From positions 1 to 24,896 of the IMG/VR virus record IMGVR_UViG_3300046804_003567: a stretch of DNA of 24,896 nucleotides; one strand, written 5' to 3'. A model generated the notes under the pieces. The model had not been told where the DNA came from. It was given only the letters and a program-made list of their open reading frames with translations, and did no database searches. This document shows, in pieces, positions 1 to 24,025 of the stretch (position 1 is its first letter; each line of letters opens with the position of its first letter). The translations under genes and the position numbers were made by a program. Origin of the DNA: a virus.

Positions 1-764
1 TTTTTTTCGTTTAAACCGTCGGCAAAAGTTCTATTTTCAAATCCAGGAAGCAACTGTTTTTTTATTTTAAATAAAAATTCTTTTAAAAAGAGTGAACTTA
101 AATTTAAAACTTTTGTTTTAGTAGTATGTGTTGAAATACTTGATGTGGAGAATACTAACTGATCTGGATTATTACTTGAATGGTAAGATGTTATACCACT
201 AAATCCTCTAGTGCAATTGTTAAATGTTGTACTTGTCTTATCTGAATATAATATAATTTCAGAATCTATTTGAATTATACCATTTTTTTCTGGAAATCCA
301 TAAGTTGATTCTACTGTTACTGATAAATCAGTAAAATTAACATCACTTTTTAAAAATGTTGTTGACTTAGATTCTGAAGAAAATTCTAAAATATCTCCAG
401 GAACAGCAGGTAAGACAAAAGATACTGATAACCCATCAGTTGCAAAATAATCAATATTTTTTGTTAACTTCAGTCCATTTTTATAAACAATAAGATCTTC
501 CGGAGAATAACCAGTCGAAATTACAAAATAATTTTCTGAAGACTGTGGTTTTATTGTTACGACACGGTTAAATAAACTATCATACAGTTTGTCAATTTTT
601 AAATACTGATCAATGTTTTGAAGAATATCTAAAGTTCCTCCCTGAGACTCAACTGAGTTATAATATTCTTTTAAAAACTCACTGACAAGAGGATATTCCT
701 CTTGCACAAAGTCTGGAAGTTGATTCTGTACGATTGAACTGATTTTAACTCGTGTATCTTTCAT
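1..764 (-). CDS. Baseplate wedge initiator-like protein (gp7-like), N-terminal part
   Basis: This gene starts with ATG at 764, one base after the gp6 stop, and runs off the left edge, so only the first 254 residues are visible. The N-terminus (MKDTRVKISSIVQNQLPDFV, then an acidic and aromatic stretch ending in LKEYY) and a later IDSEIILYSDK segment followed by a C-T-R-G-F-S-G turn look like the start of the large virion protein that follows gp6 in T4-like cyanophages. From memory that protein is usually annotated as the gp7 baseplate wedge initiator. Position directly after gp25 and gp6 supports a baseplate role. Because the C-terminus is missing, family length cannot be checked; another large baseplate or tail protein is possible. 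Confidence 0.6.
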   Translation of the reverse strand, partial: MKDTRVKISSIVQNQLPDFVQEEYPLVSEFLKEYYNSVESQGGTLDILQNIDQYLKIDKLYDSLFNRVVTIKPQSSENYFVISTGYSPEDLIVYKNGLKLTKNIDYFATDGLSVSFVLPAVPGDILEFSSESKSTTFLKSDVNFTDLSVTVESTYGFPEKNGIIQIDSEIILYSDKTSTTFNNCTRGFSGITSYHSSNNPDQLVFSTSSISTHTTKTKVLNLSSLFLKEFLFKIKKQLLPGFENRTFADGLNEK

Positions 765-765
765 G

Positions 766-2679
766 TTATTCTCTTATAATTACTCCGTTACTGTAACTTG
801 TAGTTTTTGTATAAGATGATCCTGCTGGATCATCTCCAGAAGAAATTCTATCTGGCAAAGTTTGTATTGACACATTATCAATACTTAAATTTAAATATAA
901 ATCTTGCAAACCTATAACATCGTTTGATTCTGGTATTGCAGATATTTCTATTATAGGTTCACCCCCACTTTCTTTAGATGTTCTAACAATGTTAATGGCA
1001 TTTAAGTAAATTTCTCCCTTTACATAATCAACTGAACCTGCATTTGAATCTACTATTCTATAAGATTGAGCAGAGTCTAGATAAAACAAGAAAATAGTTC
1101 CAGTTAAACCGTTTGATAGAGGTGAATCACTTAAATAAACAGTCTGAGCAATACCAGGAACGGTAAATCCAGAAGATTTGATGTTAAATCCATTAGGATT
1201 TTTTATATGAAATTGATTACCAAAACATATTTCATAAGTCGCTAAACTATTTAACACAGATTTTAAATCACGCCTCATTTCAACTTTTGTTATATTTGAA
1301 GTAATAGATTCGTGACTATCATCAATTAATTTTAAAAATTTGCTATATTTGAATCTAGCTCCATATCGATTTAACTCCGTTGATTTTGCATATTTGTTTA
1401 TATTTTGATAAACTACATTATTGATATACTCCGAAGATGGTGCGATGTTATTGTCGTAATAAATTGTTGAATTAATCTCAAGTATAAGATATTTTAAGTC
1501 TTTTATTTCTGGAATTATTCCAGCCACAGAATATTTTTTAAGTTTCTGTTTGATATTGTCTTTTACACCATTTGGAACAAAAAACCCATTTTGAGGTTTA
1601 ATTGTAATAAAAACTTTTCCATATTCTGGTGGATTTAAATCTTCCCCACCATATACGGAAATAGATTCTGCTTCAGGATAAATTTGTGAGACTATTGCTT
1701 CATAATCATTTGCTGTGACTGCTCTGTTCTGCGATGCATAAACCCTTGGGGCATATTTTTTGATAGAATCAATAGACTCTATCTCTTTACCACCACTTCC
1801 AGCAGTATTGGTGCTTATCAATGATATTTCACTTAAAACAATAAATCCATTATTGTCTACAATATTTCCACTAAAAACAAAAGATGATACTCCATTTGCA
1901 GACTCACCTTTAGTCACAACATACGAAATATCAACAATGTTTCCGCTGATCAATTTTCTACCAAAAATTCCATCACCAAATAAAAGTTCATATCTTTGAT
2001 CTTCTATTTCTTGAATAAAAAAGACTCTAGAATCTGCATTGATATTTAAAATATTATCTGATTGAATATATTTTTTTCTTGGACCGAGTTCGCCGTCACG
2101 AACCTCAACTCTAATTAAGGAAGAATCGACATCAGAATTGTTTAAAATATACTTTTGATTTGGATTTAATGAGTCAACAGTATATTTTTCTGTGATATAT
2201 GTACCTTCATATATGCTTATGTTACTAAATTCTGCAATTCCATTTATAACAGGAACTGTTATGTCATCAGGAATTGAAAAAACATAATTTTCTGATCCAA
2301 AAGATGACACCGAAGTAGCGACAATTCCTTTTTTCAGTGTCAATGCTACAGGTTTTTGTGGAGAAGAACTAGTTGAGGTATCAACAAAGAACGAAATATT
2401 AGCTCTTGATGCTATTTTAGATCTGGGAATATATCCAATGCTTCTTGCAATTGATACCACATTTTCTCTAAGAGTGGCACTATCAATAAAAACCTCATTG
2501 CTAACCATGTTAGCATTATATGAGGAAATATATGTATTATATGCAAGTATATCTAAGATTACTGATAGATTTGATCCTTCAAAATCGTAATCAGTAAAAT
2601 TTGAATTCGATCTAAGGTAATCCTTAATCGAAGTCTTAATTTGATCAAAATCTAGATTGGTAAAGTTAACTAGTGCCAT
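766..2679 (-). CDS. gp6: Baseplate wedge subunit gp6 (baseplate J-like)
   Basis: The product is 637 residues, close to T4 gp6 at about 660. It begins MALVNFTNLDFDQIKTSIKD and continues with a long beta-rich middle and the SQNRAVTANDYEAIV segment (about residue 316) typical of baseplate J/gp6 proteins. In T4, gp6 dimers form the ring that joins the wedges around the baseplate hub and remodel during sheath contraction. The start is 3 bases after the gp25 stop and the end is 1 base before the next ATG, so gp25, gp6 and the gp7-like gene form one late operon. Codon use is AT-rich, like the other structural genes here. Confidence 0.9.
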   Translation of the reverse strand: MALVNFTNLDFDQIKTSIKDYLRSNSNFTDYDFEGSNLSVILDILAYNTYISSYNANMVSNEVFIDSATLRENVVSIARSIGYIPRSKIASRANISFFVDTSTSSSPQKPVALTLKKGIVATSVSSFGSENYVFSIPDDITVPVINGIAEFSNISIYEGTYITEKYTVDSLNPNQKYILNNSDVDSSLIRVEVRDGELGPRKKYIQSDNILNINADSRVFFIQEIEDQRYELLFGDGIFGRKLISGNIVDISYVVTKGESANGVSSFVFSGNIVDNNGFIVLSEISLISTNTAGSGGKEIESIDSIKKYAPRVYASQNRAVTANDYEAIVSQIYPEAESISVYGGEDLNPPEYGKVFITIKPQNGFFVPNGVKDNIKQKLKKYSVAGIIPEIKDLKYLILEINSTIYYDNNIAPSSEYINNVVYQNINKYAKSTELNRYGARFKYSKFLKLIDDSHESITSNITKVEMRRDLKSVLNSLATYEICFGNQFHIKNPNGFNIKSSGFTVPGIAQTVYLSDSPLSNGLTGTIFLFYLDSAQSYRIVDSNAGSVDYVKGEIYLNAINIVRTSKESGGEPIIEISAIPESNDVIGLQDLYLNLSIDNVSIQTLPDRISSGDDPAGSSYTKTTSYSNGVIIRE

Positions 2680-2682
2680 TTA

Positions 2683-3084
2683 TTATCGTGTTGGTTGTAA
2701 TGCAAATGATAACTGTTGAGGAGATACATCAATACCAACTATGTAATATTTAATAGTTACATTAAATTCATAATTATCATAATTTGGAGTAACATTAACC
2801 TCTATTAAATTTACTCTGGGTTCATAATTTCGAATTGAAGATTCAATTTGATCTTTTACTATAGAAGCACTGATATCATCAATGTTTTCAAATAGAGACT
2901 GATTTACATTAGAACCTAAATTTGGTTCAAAAAACCTTTCTCCAGGTTGAGTTGCTATTAGATTACGAACAGATCGAGAAATAGCATTTTCATTTTTAAT
3001 CGCAATCAAATCATAGTTCAGGGGATTAACCTGAAAGGATAAACTAATATCTTTAAATGACTTGCTTATCCTTTCAGAAGGCAT
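2683..3084 (-). CDS. gp25: Baseplate wedge subunit gp25
   Basis: The product is 133 residues, the usual size for gp25-like proteins, which are also called lysozyme-like baseplate proteins without shown lytic activity. The RNLIATQPGERFFEPNLGSN segment (about residues 41-60) is the hallmark: the P-G-E-R-x-F-x-P-x-x-G core of the gp25/GPW family. gp25 lies at the wedge-sheath interface and helps start sheath assembly. A T4-type late promoter octamer lies 23 bp upstream and overlaps the stop codon of the previous gene. gp6 follows after 3 bp. The only ATG in good context is at 3084. Confidence 0.92.
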   Translation of the reverse strand: MPSERISKSFKDISLSFQVNPLNYDLIAIKNENAISRSVRNLIATQPGERFFEPNLGSNVNQSLFENIDDISASIVKDQIESSIRNYEPRVNLIEVNVTPNYDNYEFNVTIKYYIVGIDVSPQQLSFALQPTR

Positions 3085-8690: not shown

Positions 8691-9017
8691 TTACATCAAC
8701 GAAAATGCTTCAGTTTGAGATACACTACCTTCTGGCAGTTTTGTAGTTTCAGCACAGAAAACTGCATCAGCAAAAGTATTAAACTTTCCGAAGTTTACTT
8801 GATTACCAACCCAGCAACCTTTGTATTCATAAACCATTGCTTGCACAATAAACTCATCACCTTTTGTTTGCTGATTCACAGAATGACGAATCTCAATGTT
8901 GTTTCCTTCCTGAGAATAAGTGTCGAAACTATTACTCTTAAAGCGACGATTCCAGGTAGGAAAACTTACAGAAACATCAATGTTCTCAGCAAAGAGATTT
9001 GCGAAGTGAGCAGTCAT
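8691..9017 (-). CDS. Hypothetical protein, 108 aa
   Basis: The product is 108 residues and beta-rich: MTAHFANLFAENIDVSVSFP, then TWNRRFKSNSFDTYSQEG, EIRHSVNQQTKGDEFIVQAM and KLPEGSVSQTEAFSLM at the end. It is soluble, with aromatic residues spaced as in a beta barrel. It is the first gene of the operon driven by the dyad promoter D2, with the shared leader sequence directly before its ATG. No known function. Confidence 0.75.
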   Translation of the reverse strand: MTAHFANLFAENIDVSVSFPTWNRRFKSNSFDTYSQEGNNIEIRHSVNQQTKGDEFIVQAMVYEYKGCWVGNQVNFGKFNTFADAVFCAETTKLPEGSVSQTEAFSLM

Positions 9018-9058
9018 TGAGTGAAATCCCTTGAACTTCTATAGAATACACGATTTTG
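9018..9058 (-). repeat. Conserved promoter leader module, copy in D2
   Basis: From the -10 region to the ATG the minus strand reads TTCTATAGAAGTTCAAGGGA then TTTCACTCA. It matches copies at 10470, 11976 and 12518. Confidence 0.75.
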
Positions 9059-10229: not shown

Positions 10230-10469
10230 TCAAAAGTGCGATTCGGACCAATCAAGTTTGTCACTGTACTTTGCAATACCATCGTAACAACGACCTGCCA
10301 TCAGATCGTCACCGTCAGCGACATAACCTTTGAGAAACTCAAAGCAATACTTGATACGCAGTTCAGGTGCAACTGCATCAAGTTGTTGTTGCTTACGCTG
10401 CTGATAGTTTGCATTGTAAGCAAACATTTCACGATCTTCGATGCTGATGGGATGAAACTTGCGATCCAT
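10230..10469 (-). CDS. Hypothetical protein, 79 aa
   Basis: The product is 79 residues: MDRKFHPISIEDREMFAYNA, a helix with NYQQRKQQQLDAVAPELRIK, then YCFEFLKGYVADGDDLMAGR and an acidic end. It is all-helical and soluble. It is the first gene of the operon from the dyad promoter D3, with the shared leader before its ATG. No known function. Confidence 0.72.
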   Translation of the reverse strand: MDRKFHPISIEDREMFAYNANYQQRKQQQLDAVAPELRIKYCFEFLKGYVADGDDLMAGRCYDGIAKYSDKLDWSESHF

Positions 10470-10511
10470 TGGGTGAAATCCCTTGAACTTCTATAGAATA
10501 CACCAATCTGG
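10470..10511 (-). repeat. Conserved promoter leader module, copy in D3
   Basis: The minus strand reads TTCTATAGAAGTTCAAGGGA then TTTCACCCA before the ATG, the same as the 9018 copy except at one base. Confidence 0.75.
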
Positions 10512-11727: not shown

Positions 11728-11975
11728 CAAACTGCACCTTGCATAAAGTTGTACTCTTGAACCAGACCAATGTTGTCACCAGTGATGACATAATCCATTG
11801 CGATTCTCTCATCAATCTCGCGGATTGCATCTTTCTTGGTGATGCACTTCTGAGAGATTGTATCAATACCCTTCCAAGAAAGAATCTTGAGAGTGTGAGT
11901 AGAACAATCCTCAATGGGATAGAATCCCACGAGCATTGTGCCGTCTTTTGATTGAAGTGTGGGAAACTCGGTCAT
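11727..11975 (-). CDS. Hypothetical protein, 82 aa
   Basis: The product is 82 residues: MTEFPTLQSKDGTMLVGFYP, then IEDCSTHTLKILSWKGIDTI, a helix with KKDAIREIDERIAMDYVI and a polar end. It is alpha/beta and soluble. It is the first gene of the seven-gene operon from dyad promoter D4, with the shared leader directly before the ATG. No known function. Confidence 0.72.
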   Translation of the reverse strand: MTEFPTLQSKDGTMLVGFYPIEDCSTHTLKILSWKGIDTISQKCITKKDAIREIDERIAMDYVITGDNIGLVQEYNFMQGAV

Positions 11976-12016
11976 GGGTGAAATCCCTTGAACTTCTTAA
12001 GAATACACGATTTTGG
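11976..12016 (-). repeat. Conserved promoter leader module, copy in D4
   Basis: The minus strand reads TTCTTAAGAAGTTCAAGGGA then TTTCACCC before the ATG. The palindrome centre is TTAA where other copies have TATA. Confidence 0.75.
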
Positions 12017-12073: not shown

Positions 12074-12517
12074 TCAACGAGCGTACAAATATCCTCCCGA
12101 CCAATCGCAATTCTCAAGCACATATTCACGATCAGTAATCAATCGCAAATCATAGCGAACACCTTTAGCAGGAGACTTCCAACTGGCAGACTTATAAACT
12201 TCTCCCGTTTGCTTATCAATGAAGCAATGAACACTGCGGGAACCGCCACCATTAACCAAAATCACTTTGTGATACTTTTTACCAGTTTCTACCTGATAAT
12301 CAATGTCGCACTCTCCAGACTTGAGTTCATCAATCTTGCGCTGATGATACTCTTGGGTATCAGCATCATTCGCGAACTTTTGATGACCGCGAATAGAATA
12401 CTCAACATAATTCTGTTTGAGTGCTTCAATCAGCATTTGAGTGTACTTAACAACATTCTCAGCAATTTGTTGCTTTGCTTGTTGTTGAGCAGGAAAATCA
12501 ACGAAAGCAGTTGTCAT
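12074..12517 (-). CDS. Conserved hypothetical protein, 147 aa
   Basis: The product is 147 residues. A helical N-terminal half (MTTAFVDFPAQQQAKQQIAE, then NVVKYTQMLIEALKQNYVEY) is followed by a beta-rich half with KKYHKVILVNGGGSRSVHCF and ASWKSPAKGVRYDLRLIT. From memory, the V-H-C-F-I-D-K-x-T-G-x-x-Y-K-x-A-S-W-K-x-P-A-K-G-V-R-Y core is widespread in T4-like cyanophages, with no assigned function. It is alone between dyad promoters D5 and D4. Confidence 0.78.
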   Translation of the reverse strand: MTTAFVDFPAQQQAKQQIAENVVKYTQMLIEALKQNYVEYSIRGHQKFANDADTQEYHQRKIDELKSGECDIDYQVETGKKYHKVILVNGGGSRSVHCFIDKQTGEVYKSASWKSPAKGVRYDLRLITDREYVLENCDWSGGYLYAR

Positions 12518-12558
12518 TGGGTGAATCCCTTGAACTTCTTAAGAATACATCATTTTGA
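12518..12558 (-). repeat. Conserved promoter leader module, copy in D5
   Basis: The minus strand reads TTCTTAAGAAGTTCAAGGGA then TTCACCCA before the ATG, one base shorter than the D3 copy. Confidence 0.75.
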
Positions 12559-15957: not shown

Positions 15958-16015
15958 AATTTAACTGATCTTGGTGTGGAAATCAAGTGTCTTGTGACAG
16001 TTTGAGAACTGTCTC
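15958..16015 (-). promoter_or_regulatory. Dyad promoter D7 (for 15931-15582)
   Basis: The promoter has -35 TTGATT (15981-15986), a 17-bp spacer and -10 TAAATT (15958-15963). The dyad GAGACAGTT-CTCA-AACTGTCAC is at 15994-16015, 30 bp from the -10, with a perfect 7-bp stem. The TGA of the upstream gene overlaps its distal edge. Confidence 0.68.
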
Positions 16016-16592
16016 AAAGTTTCTTATAAAGTATGATTTTCTTGTTTTCTCCAGTAGGTTTAACAAACTTTTGCTTTAATTGTTCTCCACTATCCCATTT
16101 CATTGAAGATGATTTGTGGGCAGGAAGTCCTGCGGTTTCACCTATAACTTCCCAATTATCTGCTTTATAAACTGCACCAGTGTTTCCACCTGCAACAAAT
16201 GTGAGCAAATGCGATAGATCATCACCATATTTTTCTTTCCATACTTCTTGGCAAGAATTGCGAACAAGTTTCAAAATCTGTGTGCCTGCATTGGGTATCT
16301 TTCTCTTTAGGCAAAATCTCCAATTATTTGCGAAGTTGTTAAAAACCTTTCGATATTCATCTTTACTGAGATTTACCTTTTTCAACAAATCTTTCGGTGG
16401 TGGATATACTGAAGAACCAAGTCCAATCATGCCAATACACTCAGGAAGTAAACCCTCCTGAGTATAATAAATCAACCAATCAATCCGTCTACCTACAGAT
16501 GCTGCAGATGCGACATAACTGTGATAGTTCTCGATGATATTTTTTACTTCTTGCTTTTGTGCTTTTGTTGTAACTAACTCAATAGAAAACAT
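16014..16592 (-). CDS. DUF4338/Mom-like (GNAT-related) protein
   Basis: The product is 192 residues. The order of segments fits, from memory, the DUF4338 group (N-terminal part of Druantia DruA), itself related to the Mom DNA-modification acyltransferases. These are an N-terminal H-Y or H-S-Y helix (ENYHSYVASAASVGRRIDWL), ECIGMIGLGSS, VFNNFANNWRFCL, KIPNAGTQILKLVRNSCQEV, a W-x-x-K-Y-G motif and FVAGGNTGAVYKADNWEVIG near 145-150 onwards. If the match holds, it could modify DNA bases or act on DNA. It overlaps the nuclease-like gene as TAATG, so both are made together. Family membership is an eye-level match without a search. Confidence 0.55.
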   Translation of the reverse strand: MFSIELVTTKAQKQEVKNIIENYHSYVASAASVGRRIDWLIYYTQEGLLPECIGMIGLGSSVYPPPKDLLKKVNLSKDEYRKVFNNFANNWRFCLKRKIPNAGTQILKLVRNSCQEVWKEKYGDDLSHLLTFVAGGNTGAVYKADNWEVIGETAGLPAHKSSSMKWDSGEQLKQKFVKPTGENKKIILYKKL

Positions 16593-17260
16593 TAGAAAGT
16601 TTTGTAAATATGAAACATCAATCCATGATAACCAGAGGTATATTTTTTACCCGAACCTTTCATTTGAAGATGAAACATTTTATTGCCATTTGAGTCAATA
16701 AAATGTAGTGTGGTCTCATTCAATACCCATTGTCCATTATACACCAGTTGCTCAAGATCTTCAACAGAGTACACTTGAGTATTAGTAGTAGGTTTATCAA
16801 ACCAAATCAAATAATCAACTGGAGTGTCGCTCATGCCGCGGCGGACAATCACATCGAAGATTTCAAGTTTGTGTTGATTGAACCATTCAATCGCCCAATC
16901 ATTGTATCCATCATCAATTTGACTTTTAGTGAGTCGATGTTGACGACTTTGACCTTTGCTTACATCTTTTCCAGGAATACCAAAGAAAGAATCAAACCAC
17001 AGACGGAGATCTCCAGCAATGTTAAAAAACTCACACCACCTTTCAGTAGAAGTTAGGTGACATTGAGTGTGATTCTTACTGACAGATTTGAGACTGTAAG
17101 AAACACCAGTTTCGTTGTTAATGATGTCTTGCTTTGTCTTGGGTTTTCCATCAACAACATGACCAGCAGTTTTAGTATTCAACCAATCACAAATGCGCTG
17201 TTCATTAAGATGACCGATGCGCTTTGCTTCGGTTCCTGCAATGATTTGGGCAGTAGTCAT
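16592..17260 (-). CDS. Restriction-endonuclease-like protein (PD-(D/E)XK candidate)
   Basis: The product is 222 residues. The N-terminal part has a helix with E20 (GHLNEQRICDWLN), then KPKTKQDII with D45 and YSLKSVSKN with S56-L57-K58, which has the spacing of a PD-(D/E)XK active site in which Ser replaces the usual acidic residue. The remainder is mixed, with Trp/Phe/His-rich segments and a basic, Gly-rich C-terminus (LQMKGSGKKYTSGYHGLMFH). It resembles type II restriction enzymes in layout. It lies directly before the DUF4338-like gene and after a capsid-targeting-like gene in the same late unit. The catalytic assignment is uncertain because of the Ser. Confidence 0.48.
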   Translation of the reverse strand: MTTAQIIAGTEAKRIGHLNEQRICDWLNTKTAGHVVDGKPKTKQDIINNETGVSYSLKSVSKNHTQCHLTSTERWCEFFNIAGDLRLWFDSFFGIPGKDVSKGQSRQHRLTKSQIDDGYNDWAIEWFNQHKLEIFDVIVRRGMSDTPVDYLIWFDKPTTNTQVYSVEDLEQLVYNGQWVLNETTLHFIDSNGNKMFHLQMKGSGKKYTSGYHGLMFHIYKTF

Positions 17261-20023: not shown

Positions 20024-20081
20024 AGTATAGGGTCTCCTGCGACCCCTGCGAGCATGTGTGGGACAGTTCCCCAACTGTCCT
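20024..20081 (-). promoter_or_regulatory. Dyad promoter D8 (for the 19993 operon)
   Basis: The -10 is TATACT (20024-20029), and the dyad AGGACAGTT-GGGG-AACTGTCCC is at 20060-20081, 30 bp upstream, with a perfect 8-bp stem. The -35 region (CTCGCA) is poor. GGGTC/GACCC arms lie in the spacer. The dyad abuts the TGA of the methyltransferase gene. Confidence 0.63.
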
Positions 20082-20917
20082 CAGTACAATAAACTCTCTA
20101 GTGCATTTGGATTAGATTCCACCTTCACTTCTGGATGTTTGATGATAATAAGTTCCGTTTTCTTTCCTCTGCAACTTACATCACCTGCCATCTGATAATC
20201 AAACTCCAAATAGCGAAACTCTGTCCAATCTTTATAAAGTTCTTTAAGGTAATCTGTGTTGTCATAAGACATCACGAACCCACCTTTATGTTGCTTCAAG
20301 ACATCAGAAAGTTTATCGTGATTGAATCCTTCGTGAGTGCTTCCATCAATACCATAATAGTATGATGTAGTTTTATAATAAGGAGGATCCAAATACATAA
20401 AATCATTCTGATGCTTTGGTATTGTATCAAAACAATTTCCAAAAGAAAATGAGAAGTTTGGATTATAGAACCCAATGAGTTTATGAATACCAGAAAGATT
20501 TAGATTCTTTCTGGATGATTCTGATGTGTGACCAAGATCTCCACTAAAGGCACCTTTGATGCAAATGTAAAATGACCATGCTCGGGTGAACTTATCATCA
20601 CTCTCTAAAAGAGGAAGAAAAGACTTATAGTGTTCTCTATCTTTTAGAGGATAATGCTTTGCTGCTTCTTCTCCAATTCTCTTTCCACCTTCTGTGGTTA
20701 GAATCTCCCAAAAATCAGCAAGAGGTTGAAATAAATCATATGCTTGAACTTTTACACCTCTTGCTGCAAGGGCAAGTTCAATACAACCTCCACCCATGAA
20801 AGGTGACATCATATATGTAAGATTAGGATGAATCTCATCAATAATCTTAATGATCTCATCTTTCATAGTGTTTTTACCACCAGCGTAGCGGTATAAACTT
20901 GTGGAGGTATATCTCAT
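20081..20917 (-). CDS. dam: D12-class N6-adenine DNA methyltransferase (Dam-like)
   Basis: The product is 278 residues, the usual size for Dam-type enzymes. It has the N-terminal YRYAGGK (9-15), motif I MSPFMGGGCIEL (37-48; AdoMet binding) and motif IV YLDPPYY (175-181; D177-P-P-Y180 catalytic). It transfers a methyl group from AdoMet to adenine N6; GATC is likely but not shown. Phage enzymes of this type protect DNA from restriction or mark it for packaging or replication. It is the last gene of the ParB-like, small ORF, methyltransferase operon, coupled by ATGA. Confidence 0.88.
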   Translation of the reverse strand: MRYTSTSLYRYAGGKNTMKDEIIKIIDEIHPNLTYMMSPFMGGGCIELALAARGVKVQAYDLFQPLADFWEILTTEGGKRIGEEAAKHYPLKDREHYKSFLPLLESDDKFTRAWSFYICIKGAFSGDLGHTSESSRKNLNLSGIHKLIGFYNPNFSFSFGNCFDTIPKHQNDFMYLDPPYYKTTSYYYGIDGSTHEGFNHDKLSDVLKQHKGGFVMSYDNTDYLKELYKDWTEFRYLEFDYQMAGDVSCRGKKTELIIIKHPEVKVESNPNALESLLY

Positions 20918-21090
20918 ATTGGTAACTTTGCTACAGATTTTCCTTTCTTATGATCAGCAATATACTTTCGTGCAGATGATTCTGTTCTGCAGATTTTTTC
21001 TAATTGCTGACCGTTATGGATAATTATATATCCTTTTTTACCAAATGGCACTGCCGCATACTCACCTTTACCTACAATAAATCCCTCCAT
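20914..21090 (-). CDS. Small basic protein between ParB-like and methyltransferase genes, 58 aa
   Basis: The product is 58 residues: MEGFIVGKGEYAAVPFGKKG, then YIIIHNGQQLEKICRTESSA and RKYIADHKKGKSVAKLPI. A beta-rich first half is followed by a basic helix. The start overlaps the ParB-like stop as TGATG and the stop overlaps the methyltransferase start as ATGA, a fully coupled trio. It may bind DNA or a partner enzyme; the function is unknown. Confidence 0.72.
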   Translation of the reverse strand: MEGFIVGKGEYAAVPFGKKGYIIIHNGQQLEKICRTESSARKYIADHKKGKSVAKLPI

Positions 21091-22091
21091 CAGTTAATTT
21101 CAACAAGAGATTGAGGATCTTCCACACCAATCAGTTGGGGAAGAGCACCTGCAATCGAATATGCAGAAGATTGATTACTCATACGCTTAACAACATATTG
21201 AACAACAAGATCATCAAGTTTTTTGAGATAATCAACTGCGAACTGTCGTTGTTTGGTAACTTCTTCTGCAGTTTCACAACCTTTAGTATAAGTCACAACA
21301 TCAGTCATCTCAATGTCCCTTTGGACAAAGTTTTCCATAATTTGGATGAAACCACGCTTCACATACATTACATCTTTACAACAAATCACAACAGGATTTG
21401 TAGAAGAATCAGTATCTACAATTTCAGCAACTTTAGACTGTGCGTTTTGTGGGTAAGGGAATGGGAGAATGTTGACAGCGATTGTGGTTTGTTGATAGAT
21501 TCGATTTACGGCATCTTCAACTTGCTTTGCTGTAAAAGAGTGATCAATACTTTCAATCCAATTTTTGATTTCTTTCTTTGAAAGATTACTACCGTGACGC
21601 TTGCAGTAGCACACGCCACGATTCACAAAATCATTGATAGTATGTCGCTTTGCAACTGTGTGATTGTTAGAACCAAGAGACACCATATCATAGGCATCTT
21701 CAATACGATCTTCCCAATCTTTTTTGAGTCGATATACAAGAAAGGGATAATCTTGAATACCAAGTTTATATGCAGCGTTGCTACGATTGTATCCATCCCA
21801 AAGTTGCTTTTTACCATTGGGAAGAATCATCACAACAGGAGGAAGTTCGGTTACGCGATAACCTTTTTGAAACTCTGCAATGAGACCGTTGATATTATCA
21901 GTATCAACACCACCTGCTCGTGCTTTATTTTTTTGTTGTTGAATTTGAAGTTGATTCCACTTAAGAATTTGAATATCATCAAATTCAGCACATTCAAATT
22001 CAGGAATGTCAAGAGAGTCAAAAGTAGGATTGCTCAGAAGAGCATCCCAAGAAGTCACATTAGACTGGAAAAAAGGAACAATTTGAGTCAT
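21090..22091 (-). CDS. ParB/sulfiredoxin-like protein
   Basis: The product is 333 residues. LWDGYNRSNAAYKLGIQDYP (about 97-116) is the ParB/Srx signature G-x-x-R-x-x-A-x-x-x-L-G, preceded by the usual strand LPPVVMILPNGKKQ. The remainder is helical with an H-T-V-A-K-R segment and no obvious centromere-binding helix-turn-helix. Phage ParB-like proteins are often linked to DNA methylation and modification genes and can carry nuclease or nucleotide-binding activity. It has its own TTGACA promoter and is coupled to a small ORF and a Dam-like gene. Confidence 0.75.
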   Translation of the reverse strand: MTQIVPFFQSNVTSWDALLSNPTFDSLDIPEFECAEFDDIQILKWNQLQIQQQKNKARAGGVDTDNINGLIAEFQKGYRVTELPPVVMILPNGKKQLWDGYNRSNAAYKLGIQDYPFLVYRLKKDWEDRIEDAYDMVSLGSNNHTVAKRHTINDFVNRGVCYCKRHGSNLSKKEIKNWIESIDHSFTAKQVEDAVNRIYQQTTIAVNILPFPYPQNAQSKVAEIVDTDSSTNPVVICCKDVMYVKRGFIQIMENFVQRDIEMTDVVTYTKGCETAEEVTKQRQFAVDYLKKLDDLVVQYVVKRMSNQSSAYSIAGALPQLIGVEDPQSLVEIN

Positions 22092-22157
22092 AATTAAAAA
22101 GTTAGCAATTTGCTTTGAGTGTCGGTGCTATGAACAGAAGTTCTGACCAACGAGACC

Positions 22158-22186
22158 AGATTAACAACTTTGGGTGGGGATGTCAA
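22158..22186 (-). promoter_or_regulatory. Sigma70-type promoter TTGACA-17-TAATCT
   Basis: TTGACA (22181-22186), a 17-bp spacer and TAATCT (22158-22163) lie about 67 bp upstream of the ParB-like ATG. A small CCCA/TGGG inverted repeat lies upstream, not of the 22-bp dyad family. Confidence 0.6.
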
Positions 22187-22202
22187 GCCCCATTTTGGGA
22201 TC

Positions 22203-22715
22203 TTAAAAACTCTTTACATACTCGTAATCAAACTCTTCTGCTTCTGCAAAGTAGTCTTTTTCATACTGATCCTGGTATCCGTGAAGGAAAAAATGATCCT
22301 GATTTGGATTACAACTTCCAGTAAGAACAGCACCAGTAAACTTAGTGTTGTAGATCATATTTGAAGGAACACAGCACGCTTTCCCAAGTTTTACATCAGT
22401 AAAGATAAAGAAATCGGCAAGTTTTTCGTTGACAGAACTGCTGGCGCGACTATTCTTCAGGATTACACCACGCACTGCCATTTTTGACACATTCTTGAAT
22501 TGAATGACTTTTGATTCATAAGTGCATCCATCAGTGCCAATCAAATCTACTCCAGGTAGATTAACTCTCTTGAGTTGTCCTTTGCTATAAACATCATATG
22601 CAATCTCCACAAGTTCCCCTGCTTTGGGAAAGCGAAGATTATTTGTGGTATAGTCTCTCAAACTCCACAAGAGTTTAGAAAGGCGATCTAGTTCAAATGT
22701 GTTGAAATCAATCAT
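22203..22715 (-). CDS. PD-(D/E)XK-like nuclease (helicase partner)
   Basis: The product is 170 residues. GVDLIGTDG with D57, followed ten residues later by YESKVIQFKN with E67-S68-K69, fits a PD-(D/E)XK nuclease active site. The preceding helix carries E34 and E37. FFIFTDVKLGKACCVP (about 102-117) looks like the following core strand. It starts in the TGATTATG context 2 bp after the helicase stop. Co-expression with an SF2 helicase recalls restriction or nucleic-acid degradation units; no separate specificity protein is seen. Confidence 0.62.
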   Translation of the reverse strand: MIDFNTFELDRLSKLLWSLRDYTTNNLRFPKAGELVEIAYDVYSKGQLKRVNLPGVDLIGTDGCTYESKVIQFKNVSKMAVRGVILKNSRASSSVNEKLADFFIFTDVKLGKACCVPSNMIYNTKFTGAVLTGSCNPNQDHFFLHGYQDQYEKDYFAEAEEFDYEYVKSF

Positions 22716-22717
22716 AA

Positions 22718-23947
22718 TCAGCGTTTGATTGTGGAAATAGCAGGTTCACCTTGTTGAAACACAGTGTCAACAACATTCTGAATTTTTTTAGCGGTGGAGA
22801 TTCCCACAGAGTTGAAGGTCGGGATAATCACCAGACCATACGACTTATGGTAGTCCTCCAACCGTCCAGGTGTCAAGTCTCCAGAGCGAAGTCGTGCAGC
22901 ATCCTTATGATGTAGTCGCACAACCCGTCCAATAGTCTGACAGATACCAATAGCATCCATAGATCGCATAAAGATCACTGCTTCAAGTCCAGATACATTG
23001 ATACCTTCGGACAGAATAGAATAATGAAGCAAAACAAACTTCTTAGAATCATCCAAACTCCACTTATGAAGAATCTCAAAGAACTCCTCACGATTTACCT
23101 TCTTACCATCAATGATTGCACCAGTCTTAGATGTAATGACCATCCAAGAATATCCACGATCTTCTAGTTCCTGACAGAACCCAGTTTGTGAGATTAGATT
23201 GGTGATTTGCTTGGTTGCTTTGGCACACACAAGCACCTTAGAAACTGCTGCTTCGTCAATACTTTCCAGAAGATGATTGCAGTCACGCTCAAATACATTA
23301 TTGCTGTCCAAAGATACTTGCTTAGCAACAATCTTAGGAGGAATAATATATCCTTCTCTCACCATACGGGGAGCAGGAACATTTGCAATGATGTTACCAT
23401 AAACCTGAGTATTGTTCATCCCAGGTTTCTTGGGAGTGGAAGAATACTTTGGAGTTGCAGTATAGAAATAACAACGATCCGCTTTCCTGCTGAAGTATTC
23501 AGTAGCAACATAGAAGTTCTTTTGCACGCTGTTATGTGCTTCATCAAAGTGAATTGTGTTCACTTTAATTCCTGCCTCCATAATTTTATGAAGGGAATGA
23601 TATGTGGTGAAGATCAGTTGATGTTTGTTGTATGATTTGTTGATATGATATTGTGCTTTGATCGCTCCAGGTTTAGTTGTACTGAAGTGATGAGTCTCTC
23701 CAGAGTGAACGTGAAAAACTTCAGCATCAGTAATGTGCTCAAGATACTCAGAAGAGAGTTGATTCGCAAGCAAAATGCGAGGAGCAACAACTACAACAGT
23801 CTGTGGAGTTTCTTTCAGAAACTCACGAATCGTATCACCAATACCTACAAGAGTCTTACCTGCTCCTGTCGTTGCACAGATAATACCTTTAAGATGAATC
23901 TCAGTCGCATCAAGACATTCATTCTGATGATCGCGAAAGGAAATCAT
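22718..23947 (-). CDS. SF2 DEAD/DEAH-box helicase
   Basis: The product is 409 residues. It has Q-motif-like FRDHQ near the N-terminus, Walker A ATTGAGKT (25-32), Ia VVVAPRILLANQL, motif II DEAH (135-138), motif III TATP (163-166), SEGIN (313-317) and motif VI QTIGRVVR (337-344). This makes a complete two-RecA-domain SF2 helicase. It lacks the N-terminal domain of T4 UvsW and is shorter. The layout resembles helicases of restriction-type units. It is driven by the D9 promoter and followed after 2 bp by a nuclease-like gene. Confidence 0.85.
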   Translation of the reverse strand: MISFRDHQNECLDATEIHLKGIICATTGAGKTLVGIGDTIREFLKETPQTVVVVAPRILLANQLSSEYLEHITDAEVFHVHSGETHHFSTTKPGAIKAQYHINKSYNKHQLIFTTYHSLHKIMEAGIKVNTIHFDEAHNSVQKNFYVATEYFSRKADRCYFYTATPKYSSTPKKPGMNNTQVYGNIIANVPAPRMVREGYIIPPKIVAKQVSLDSNNVFERDCNHLLESIDEAAVSKVLVCAKATKQITNLISQTGFCQELEDRGYSWMVITSKTGAIIDGKKVNREEFFEILHKWSLDDSKKFVLLHYSILSEGINVSGLEAVIFMRSMDAIGICQTIGRVVRLHHKDAARLRSGDLTPGRLEDYHKSYGLVIIPTFNSVGISTAKKIQNVVDTVFQQGEPAISTIKR

Positions 23948-23968: not shown

Positions 23969-24025
23969 ATTATACCAGGAATCTGGTGCTGTGGCAAGTC
24001 AGTGTGACAGTTGTTTAAGTGTCCT
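23969..24025 (-). promoter_or_regulatory. Dyad promoter D9 (for the helicase-nuclease operon)
   Basis: The promoter has -35 TTGCCA (23992-23997), a 17-bp spacer and perfect -10 TATAAT (23969-23974). The dyad AGGACACTT-AAAC-AACTGTCAC is at 24004-24025, 29 bp from the -10, and includes the TAA of the upstream gene. Confidence 0.72.

Follow-up and report, generated by a model that had tools for sequence, protein, structure and literature searches.

A putative PD-(D/E)XK nuclease at a site of gene exchange behind a conserved cyanophage helicase, with a possible homing-like role

The window, the whole stretch of DNA analysed here, is a 24.9-kb virus record (IMG/VR record IMGVR_UViG_3300046804_003567; 24,896 nucleotides). 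It is a fragment of a T4-like cyanophage, a virus of marine cyanobacteria. Five genes of the minus strand are the subject of this text; they encode a superfamily 2 (SF2) helicase, a predicted PD-(D/E)XK nuclease, a ParB-like protein, a protein of 58 residues (p58) and a Dam-type adenine methylase (Table 1). The DNA of phage isolates matches the window in short stretches of Synechococcus phages only, and positions 1-3084 hold baseplate-like genes, recognized by eye.

The original prediction described these genes as a helicase-nuclease operon beside a ParB-like-methyltransferase operon, and its anatomy is sound. All five open reading frames (ORFs) are present on the one strand, the nuclease follows the helicase after 2 bp at the coordinates given in Table 1, and the last three genes have the overlapping starts and stops that had been noted. 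The ParB-like and p58 ORFs share 1 bp (TGATG), and those of p58 and Dam share 4 bp (ATGA). A gap of 111 bp separates the nuclease from the ParB-like gene. The helicase and Dam-like assignments agree with Pfam matches to PF04851 and PF00270 and to PF02086, respectively. The ParB-like gene had also been credited with its own promoter, which is borne out in part: the -35 hexamer is perfect and both hexamers are unchanged in the related locus L006 while the surrounding bases differ, but the -10 hexamer is weak and falls under the scanner cut-off. The promoter-like site before the helicase is the better of the two.

Table 1. Genes and candidate regulatory features of the locus (positions in the window).
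Feature	Position	Strand	Evidence or remark
SF2 (DEAH-box) helicase, 409 aa	22718..23947	-	PF04851 9.7e-17, PF00270 3.5e-12
Putative PD-(D/E)XK nuclease, 170 aa	22203..22715	-	motif E37, D57, E67-x-K69; fold; no Pfam match
Putative ParB/Srx-fold protein, 333 aa	21090..22091	-	low-confidence model; no Pfam match
p58, 58-aa protein (phrog_33194)	20914..21090	-	no Pfam match
D12-class (Dam-type) adenine methylase, 278 aa	20081..20917	-	PF02086 1.9e-18, DPPY motif
Promoter-like TTGCCA-17-TATAAT (11 of 12) before the helicase	23969..23997	-	
Promoter-like TTGACA-17-TAATCT for the ParB-like gene	22158..22186	-	sequence
Palindrome AGCAAATTGCT, candidate operator, just 5' of the ParB-like start codon	22104..22114	-	
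Inverted repeat GGACAGTT-GGGG-AACTGTCC 3' of Dam	20061..20080	-	same in L012; no T run after it

Related loci were seeded on the nuclease, helicase, ParB-like or Dam gene. The IMG/VR contigs that carry them are fragments and partly redundant, and the frequencies given below are not population estimates. The labels HNH-like and EcoRI-like were assigned by eye unless a Pfam or NCBIfam match is cited. Across the genes compared, the ratio of non-synonymous to synonymous divergence (dN/dS) is 0.03-0.14, with synonymous divergence far exceeding non-synonymous divergence in each. The reading frames are therefore not due to chance, and the genes compared are under purifying selection.

Relatives of the nuclease were found at 84 places in viral contigs. 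Among isolates, tblastn finds the gene only in S-SM1 (two entries), where it again lies 2 bp behind the helicase. One scan of bacterial genomes with two short peptide patterns returned no relative, although distant relatives would be missed by it. The protein sequence has no match in Pfam, PADLOC, PHROG or the PDB. From its sequence and distribution, the 170-residue protein appears to represent a new, virus-only PD-(D/E)XK family. Residues E37, D57, E67 and K69 are invariant in 38 homologues, and 79 of 82 nuclease loci retain the strict catalytic motif. The AlphaFold2 model has a mean confidence score (pLDDT) of 79.8, and its top Foldseek and VIA-align matches are NaeI, NhoI, Eco15I, DpnI, I-Ssp6803I, Hjc, PvuII and RecU. 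As these best matches are all PD-(D/E)XK enzymes, the class that had been assigned by eye holds. The structural Z score is about 8 for NaeI, NhoI, Eco15I and DpnI and 6.6 for I-Ssp6803I; a value near 8 supports the predicted PD-(D/E)XK fold and does not indicate a function. The fold is compatible with the PD-(D/E)XK group of homing endonucleases, yet no sequence match to a known homing family was found in Pfam or the PDB.

A remnant of the nuclease gene is seen in L030 (6001-6228) and at the same place in L031, with residues of about 25-134 deleted and the two ends in different frames. Downstream of it lie two further ORFs, one nuclease-like and one methylase-like. A role for the nuclease as a replacement for endonuclease VII (EndoVII, gp49) was considered and dropped, as PF02945 went undetected in most cyanophages, nuclease present or not, and this pattern is uninformative.

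The helicase is directly upstream of the nuclease in 74 of 82 loci, and the two genes overlap by 4 bp in 45. The pair recurs in no fewer than 74 loci, among a great variety of neighbouring genes. In four loci (L054, L058, L087 and L093) it is gp44, not the helicase, that precedes the nuclease, the order being gp44-nuclease-dam-gp62-regA where the contig continues. The nuclease gene overlaps the core-type dam in the first three of these, and the gp44 gap of L054 and L093 also holds an HNH-like ORF.

The site between the helicase and p58, referred to here as the slot, is variable in its content. It is empty in L107, L112, L114-L120 and L122, where the conserved flanks are in place and p58 directly follows the helicase. 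In L127-L129, L134-L137, L141, L142, L144 and L148 it holds GIY-YIG/NUMOD3-like proteins, labelled by Pfam or NCBIfam on examples and by shared sequence in the remainder; scores reach 1.1e-15 for NUMOD3 and 9.6e-6 for the group I intron endonuclease model TIGR01453. L145-L147 have an EndoVII-type protein (2.8e-8) with a methylase in the slot, and L130 has a weakly matching HNH-like protein there. Judged by these profile matches, the nuclease site is used by recognized homing families (GIY-YIG/NUMOD3 and EndoVII-type) as well.

Farther downstream, relatives carry PF01555 methylases, Mom (L019, L112) or an N6_Mtase/Eco57I-type gene (L143), and S-SM2 has an MjaI-type endonuclease at the locus. 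In L112 (4894-7198) Mom (1.2e-21), an MvaI/BcnI endonuclease (4.8e-40) and an N6_N4 methylase (7.9e-59) stand consecutively after the helicase and p58, so that this cyanophage-like contig has both Mom and a full type II pair. The five genes had been likened in content to a restriction-modification or DNA-marking system. Such genes do cluster at the locus in relatives (L112, S-SM2), but the five genes are not one system, as set out below.

Two further gene arrangements were noted near the locus. In L130 (3201-4681) a 182-residue ORF with an EcoRI-like stretch (PDGG...EGKKQ...GNAIER) is followed by a 324-residue ORF; the EcoRI-like label was given by eye and is backed by no Pfam family. A protein of 760-766 residues with weak ResIII/Helicase_C matches occurs together with one of 286-294 residues in L019 (6703-10600) and L167 (869-3996). 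This pair lies beside Mom in the former and beside Dam in the latter, and may be an undescribed module.

The helicase that anchors the locus is conserved across T4-like cyanophages, with about 420 phage records, all below 60% identity to that of the window. An identity with UvsW was rejected: T4 UvsW finds a separate gene (34-40% identity) elsewhere in eight of nine genomes, including the sister contig G001, the sole miss being the fragment G004, and the window helicase aligns with UvsW at profile level only. Sullivan et al. reported a helicase and an N6A-methylase common to 14 of 16 cyanophages (PMC3037559); this helicase is not equated here with that of the window. In sequence, the solved structures nearest to the window helicase profile are the translocases LlaGI and LlaBIII, restriction enzymes of type ISP, followed by MDA5 and RAD25.

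It could be argued that the helicase and nuclease are parts of a single DNA-processing complex, active in replication-recombination, repair or the breakdown of host DNA. The usual adjacency and frequent 4-bp overlap, the correlated divergence of the two proteins described below, the weaker structural similarity of the nuclease to the Hjc and RecU resolvases and the LlaGI/LlaBIII-like helicase profile are all in keeping with this. Joint action would account for the adjacency but leaves unexplained both the rarity of the nuclease among isolates, where the two S-SM1 entries are its only tblastn matches among some 420 helicase records, and its position behind gp44. Close relatives of the helicase have just p58 in place of the nuclease, and in L017 the nuclease has moved without its helicase. 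Such a complex is rather unlikely. More doubtful still is a related proposal, that the helicase is a restriction-type translocase and p58 its constant accessory, working with whichever nuclease sits behind them. If this were true, the phage would be armed against co-infecting phages: the cutting module of its weapon could be exchanged, and so could the DNA-marking gene that tunes it.

The divergence of the genes records both joint and separate inheritance. Overall, helicase and nuclease divergence are correlated (Spearman 0.82). In L017 the nuclease is 85% identical to that of the window and the helicase 56%, with DNA similarity confined approximately to the nuclease gene, from start to stop. 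Seven helicase types that are 80-90% identical to the window's and lack the nuclease are accompanied by p58 proteins of merely 45-56% identity, while helicases of 60-62% identity occur with p58 proteins of up to 81%. As p58 identity does not track helicase identity, a recombination boundary is placed where the nuclease sits. Synonymous divergence (dS) between the window and L012 is 0.37 for the helicase, 0.85 for the nuclease and 0.27 for Dam; between the window and L006 it is 0.22 for the ParB-like gene, 0.84 for the nuclease and 0.68 for Dam. The ParB-like protein is 98.5% identical between the window and L006, and its neighbours are 86-92% identical. These identities and dS values indicate separate histories for p58-Dam and helicase-nuclease, with the ParB-like gene apart from both.

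The ParB-like gene sits as a precise insertion between the nuclease and p58. In L012 the nuclease and p58 abut with a TGATG overlap, whereas 1.1 kb lies between them in the window; both L012 and L015 have the order helicase-nuclease-p58-Dam with no ParB-like gene at this point. L012 has a different ParB-like gene (27% identical) after Dam. The window protein itself has no match to ParB models, and PF18763 was matched in two relatives. Its structural model is of low confidence (pLDDT 64), with Noc, ParB, PadC, KorB, Spo0J and Srx as top Foldseek matches at modest E-values. The ParB-like label of the original prediction agrees with this model, from which a ParB/sulfiredoxin fold is predicted. 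No recognizable parA was seen among the neighbouring genes read. The palindrome AGCAAATTGCT occurs in 34 of 186 loci, many of them overlapping, and in every checked case it lies 9-12 bases 5' of a ParB-like start codon. It precedes both divergent ParB-like types and was found upstream of ParB-like genes only. Its constant position makes it a candidate operator.

With these histories, it is very improbable that all five genes form one dedicated defence or DNA-marking operon. The spacing and overlaps are tight in the window and in six contigs. Yet when the five genes were sought together in other phages, as the original prediction had proposed, those six contigs, of two sequence types, were the only ones with the full set, and the parts occur apart. 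The claim of one system fails on this synteny, to which are added the ParB insertion that is missing in L012 and L015, the exceptional identity of the ParB-like protein between the window and L006, and the differing histories of p58-Dam and helicase-nuclease. Since the full set is confined to two sequence types, a dedicated five-gene system may be excluded with good confidence on gene distribution.

In relatives, the gene next downstream of the helicase is usually p58, and no match to this protein was found in the PDB. Dam is a predicted D12-class DNA adenine methylase (PF02086, DPPY motif). The window contains 96 GATC sites, with 84 expected from base composition and 146 from a Markov estimate. 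Window-type Dam genes (87-100% identity) that are not directly behind the helicase and nuclease were found in L162, L163, L166, L170 and L171, and in L176-L182 a relative of 56-61% identity comes after the helicase and an HNH-like ORF. Dam is approximately 25-29% identical to the core-type cyanophage dam, and the sister contig G001 has a second, core-type D12 methylase near gp44. The lack of a D12 gene in G004 was dropped as an argument against a nuclease-Dam pair, as this contig also lacks gp44.

The main rival explanation holds that the locus carries a phage-borne type II restriction-modification pair, a PD-(D/E)XK endonuclease with a cognate D12 methylase, accessory or core, that would destroy host or rival DNA lacking the methylation of the phage. 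It ranks as such because the nearest folds are mostly restriction enzymes and because real type II genes use the locus in relatives. The intact catalytic residues, the overlap with the core-type dam, the tight helicase-nuclease-p58-Dam run in L012, L013 and L015, and the different HNH-like ORF between helicase and Dam in L176-L182 also fit it. D12 methylases are present in the better-covered nuclease-bearing genomes (G001, G006, G009 and S-SM1), but this co-occurrence says little because a D12 methylase is present in most cyanophages in any case. Dozens of loci have an intact nuclease with no methylase next to it, and such a neighbour is lacking in most nuclease loci. What adjoins the nuclease varies: D12, PF01555, Mom or nothing may be found, and the two D12 groups beside it are just 29% identical. 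The window-type Dam also occurs away from the nuclease. A restriction pair is possible, though on balance unlikely.

The explanation preferred here, to which a probability of about 0.5 is given, is that the locus is a hot spot of cassette exchange, with a homing-like nuclease used in contests between phages and Dam as an accessory mark. The established anatomy, fold, slot exchange, mosaic histories and purifying selection form its frame; homing, cleavage and methylation are predicted steps within it. The hot spot would be anchored on the conserved SF2 helicase and its small neighbour p58, with cassettes gained, lost and swapped between these two genes and after both. The nuclease would most likely be a homing-type endonuclease, free-standing and specific for a DNA sequence. 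On co-infection, it would cleave the matching region in a phage without the nuclease gene, and the broken genome would then acquire a copy of this gene and part of its flanks by recombination. The mobile D12 methylase would mark the phage DNA and perhaps shield it from this nuclease or from others. The ParB-like gene, with its promoter-like site and palindrome, would be an independent insert that is probably self-regulated.

Three points favour a homing-like role: homing families use the slot as well, a methylase next to the nuclease is absent from the majority of its loci, and the gene falls on recombination boundaries. At its second site the nuclease again adjoins a conserved replication gene, gp44. 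Barth et al. described cases in which nuclease genes lie at the boundaries of exchanges between phages (PMC10448857), and according to Petrov et al. transfer of this sort may be driven by any endonuclease that introduces double-strand breaks (PMC2993671). Several observations weigh on the other side. The nuclease has long been kept intact, with a dN/dS of 0.05-0.08 and few broken motifs, and it is mostly inherited with the helicase, their start and stop codons often overlapping. Many homing genes are patchier and decaying. Restriction enzymes outrank I-Ssp6803I structurally, although a Z near 8 is not decisive, and the three overlaps with a core-type dam also count against homing.

Elsewhere in the window, a DruA-like protein (PF14236, 2.0e-6, just over the cut-off) is encoded at 16014-17260 on the minus strand. 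Its gene follows, with a 1-bp overlap, a 222-residue ORF that is nuclease-like by eye; the two may be a further modification or nuclease cassette. A leader sequence about 40 bases long, GTGTATTCTATAGAAGTTCAAGGGATTTCACCCAATG or a variant of it, recurs at 9015-9055, 10467-10507, 11972-12012 and 12514-12554 (minus strand), in each of the four places before the start codon of a small ORF, and could be a shared regulatory or promoter element.

If the homing-like explanation is right, a virus-only PD-(D/E)XK family is added that occupies two exchange sites beside conserved DNA-processing genes. The locus would then be one where homing-type nucleases, gene pairs of the restriction type, Mom and orphan methylases take each other's place. 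This makes it testable whether restriction-like and homing-like phage nucleases are two uses of one role, that of winning co-infections and spreading by recombination. The locus also cautions that tight phage operons are not necessarily single systems.

Full-text literature searches returned nothing on the present locus and precedents only. The ParB-like protein shares its predicted ParB/Srx fold with the ParB-CTPase-fold proteins of phages, whose domains are common and often fused to methylases (PMC12704722). Unlike those fusions, it is encoded by a separate gene. The window Dam resembles the core cyanophage dam and T4 Dam as a D12-class N6-adenine methylase with a DPPY motif; unlike the core gene it is mobile, and in the sister contig it is a second copy beside the core-type one. 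The type II enzymes NaeI, NhoI/Eco15I, DpnI and PvuII share the PD-(D/E)XK fold and are the best structural matches of the nuclease, which differs from them in lacking both a sequence match and a methylase that constantly accompanies it. The solved structures of NhoI and Eco15I contain methylated target DNA, and DpnI depends on methylation. I-Ssp6803I, a cyanobacterial PD-(D/E)XK homing endonuclease located in a group I intron, has the same catalytic fold and a similar size, but no sequence similarity to it was detected in the PDB profile search.

F-CphI of cyanophage S-PM2 is likewise a free-standing cyanophage endonuclease beside a conserved gene. It has an EndoVII-type catalytic motif (PMC6083498), and it was rejected as a relative of the nuclease on finding no profile similarity. 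The free-standing homing endonucleases of T4-like phages, such as SegE, offer a parallel in that the nuclease gene lies 2 bp from a DNA-processing gene. In T4 itself (L187, 4058-6441; record AF158101, 112057-114440) segE is 2 bp from uvsW, a parallel arrangement with a different helicase gene. SegE is a GIY-YIG enzyme beside UvsW, whereas the present nuclease is of the predicted PD-(D/E)XK class beside another SF2 helicase. Long-term conservation is stronger here than is usual for homing endonucleases, and homing is here a prediction. Like the homing endonucleases of T4-like phages, the nuclease is sporadic among relatives and lies at a boundary of exchange (PMC10448857).

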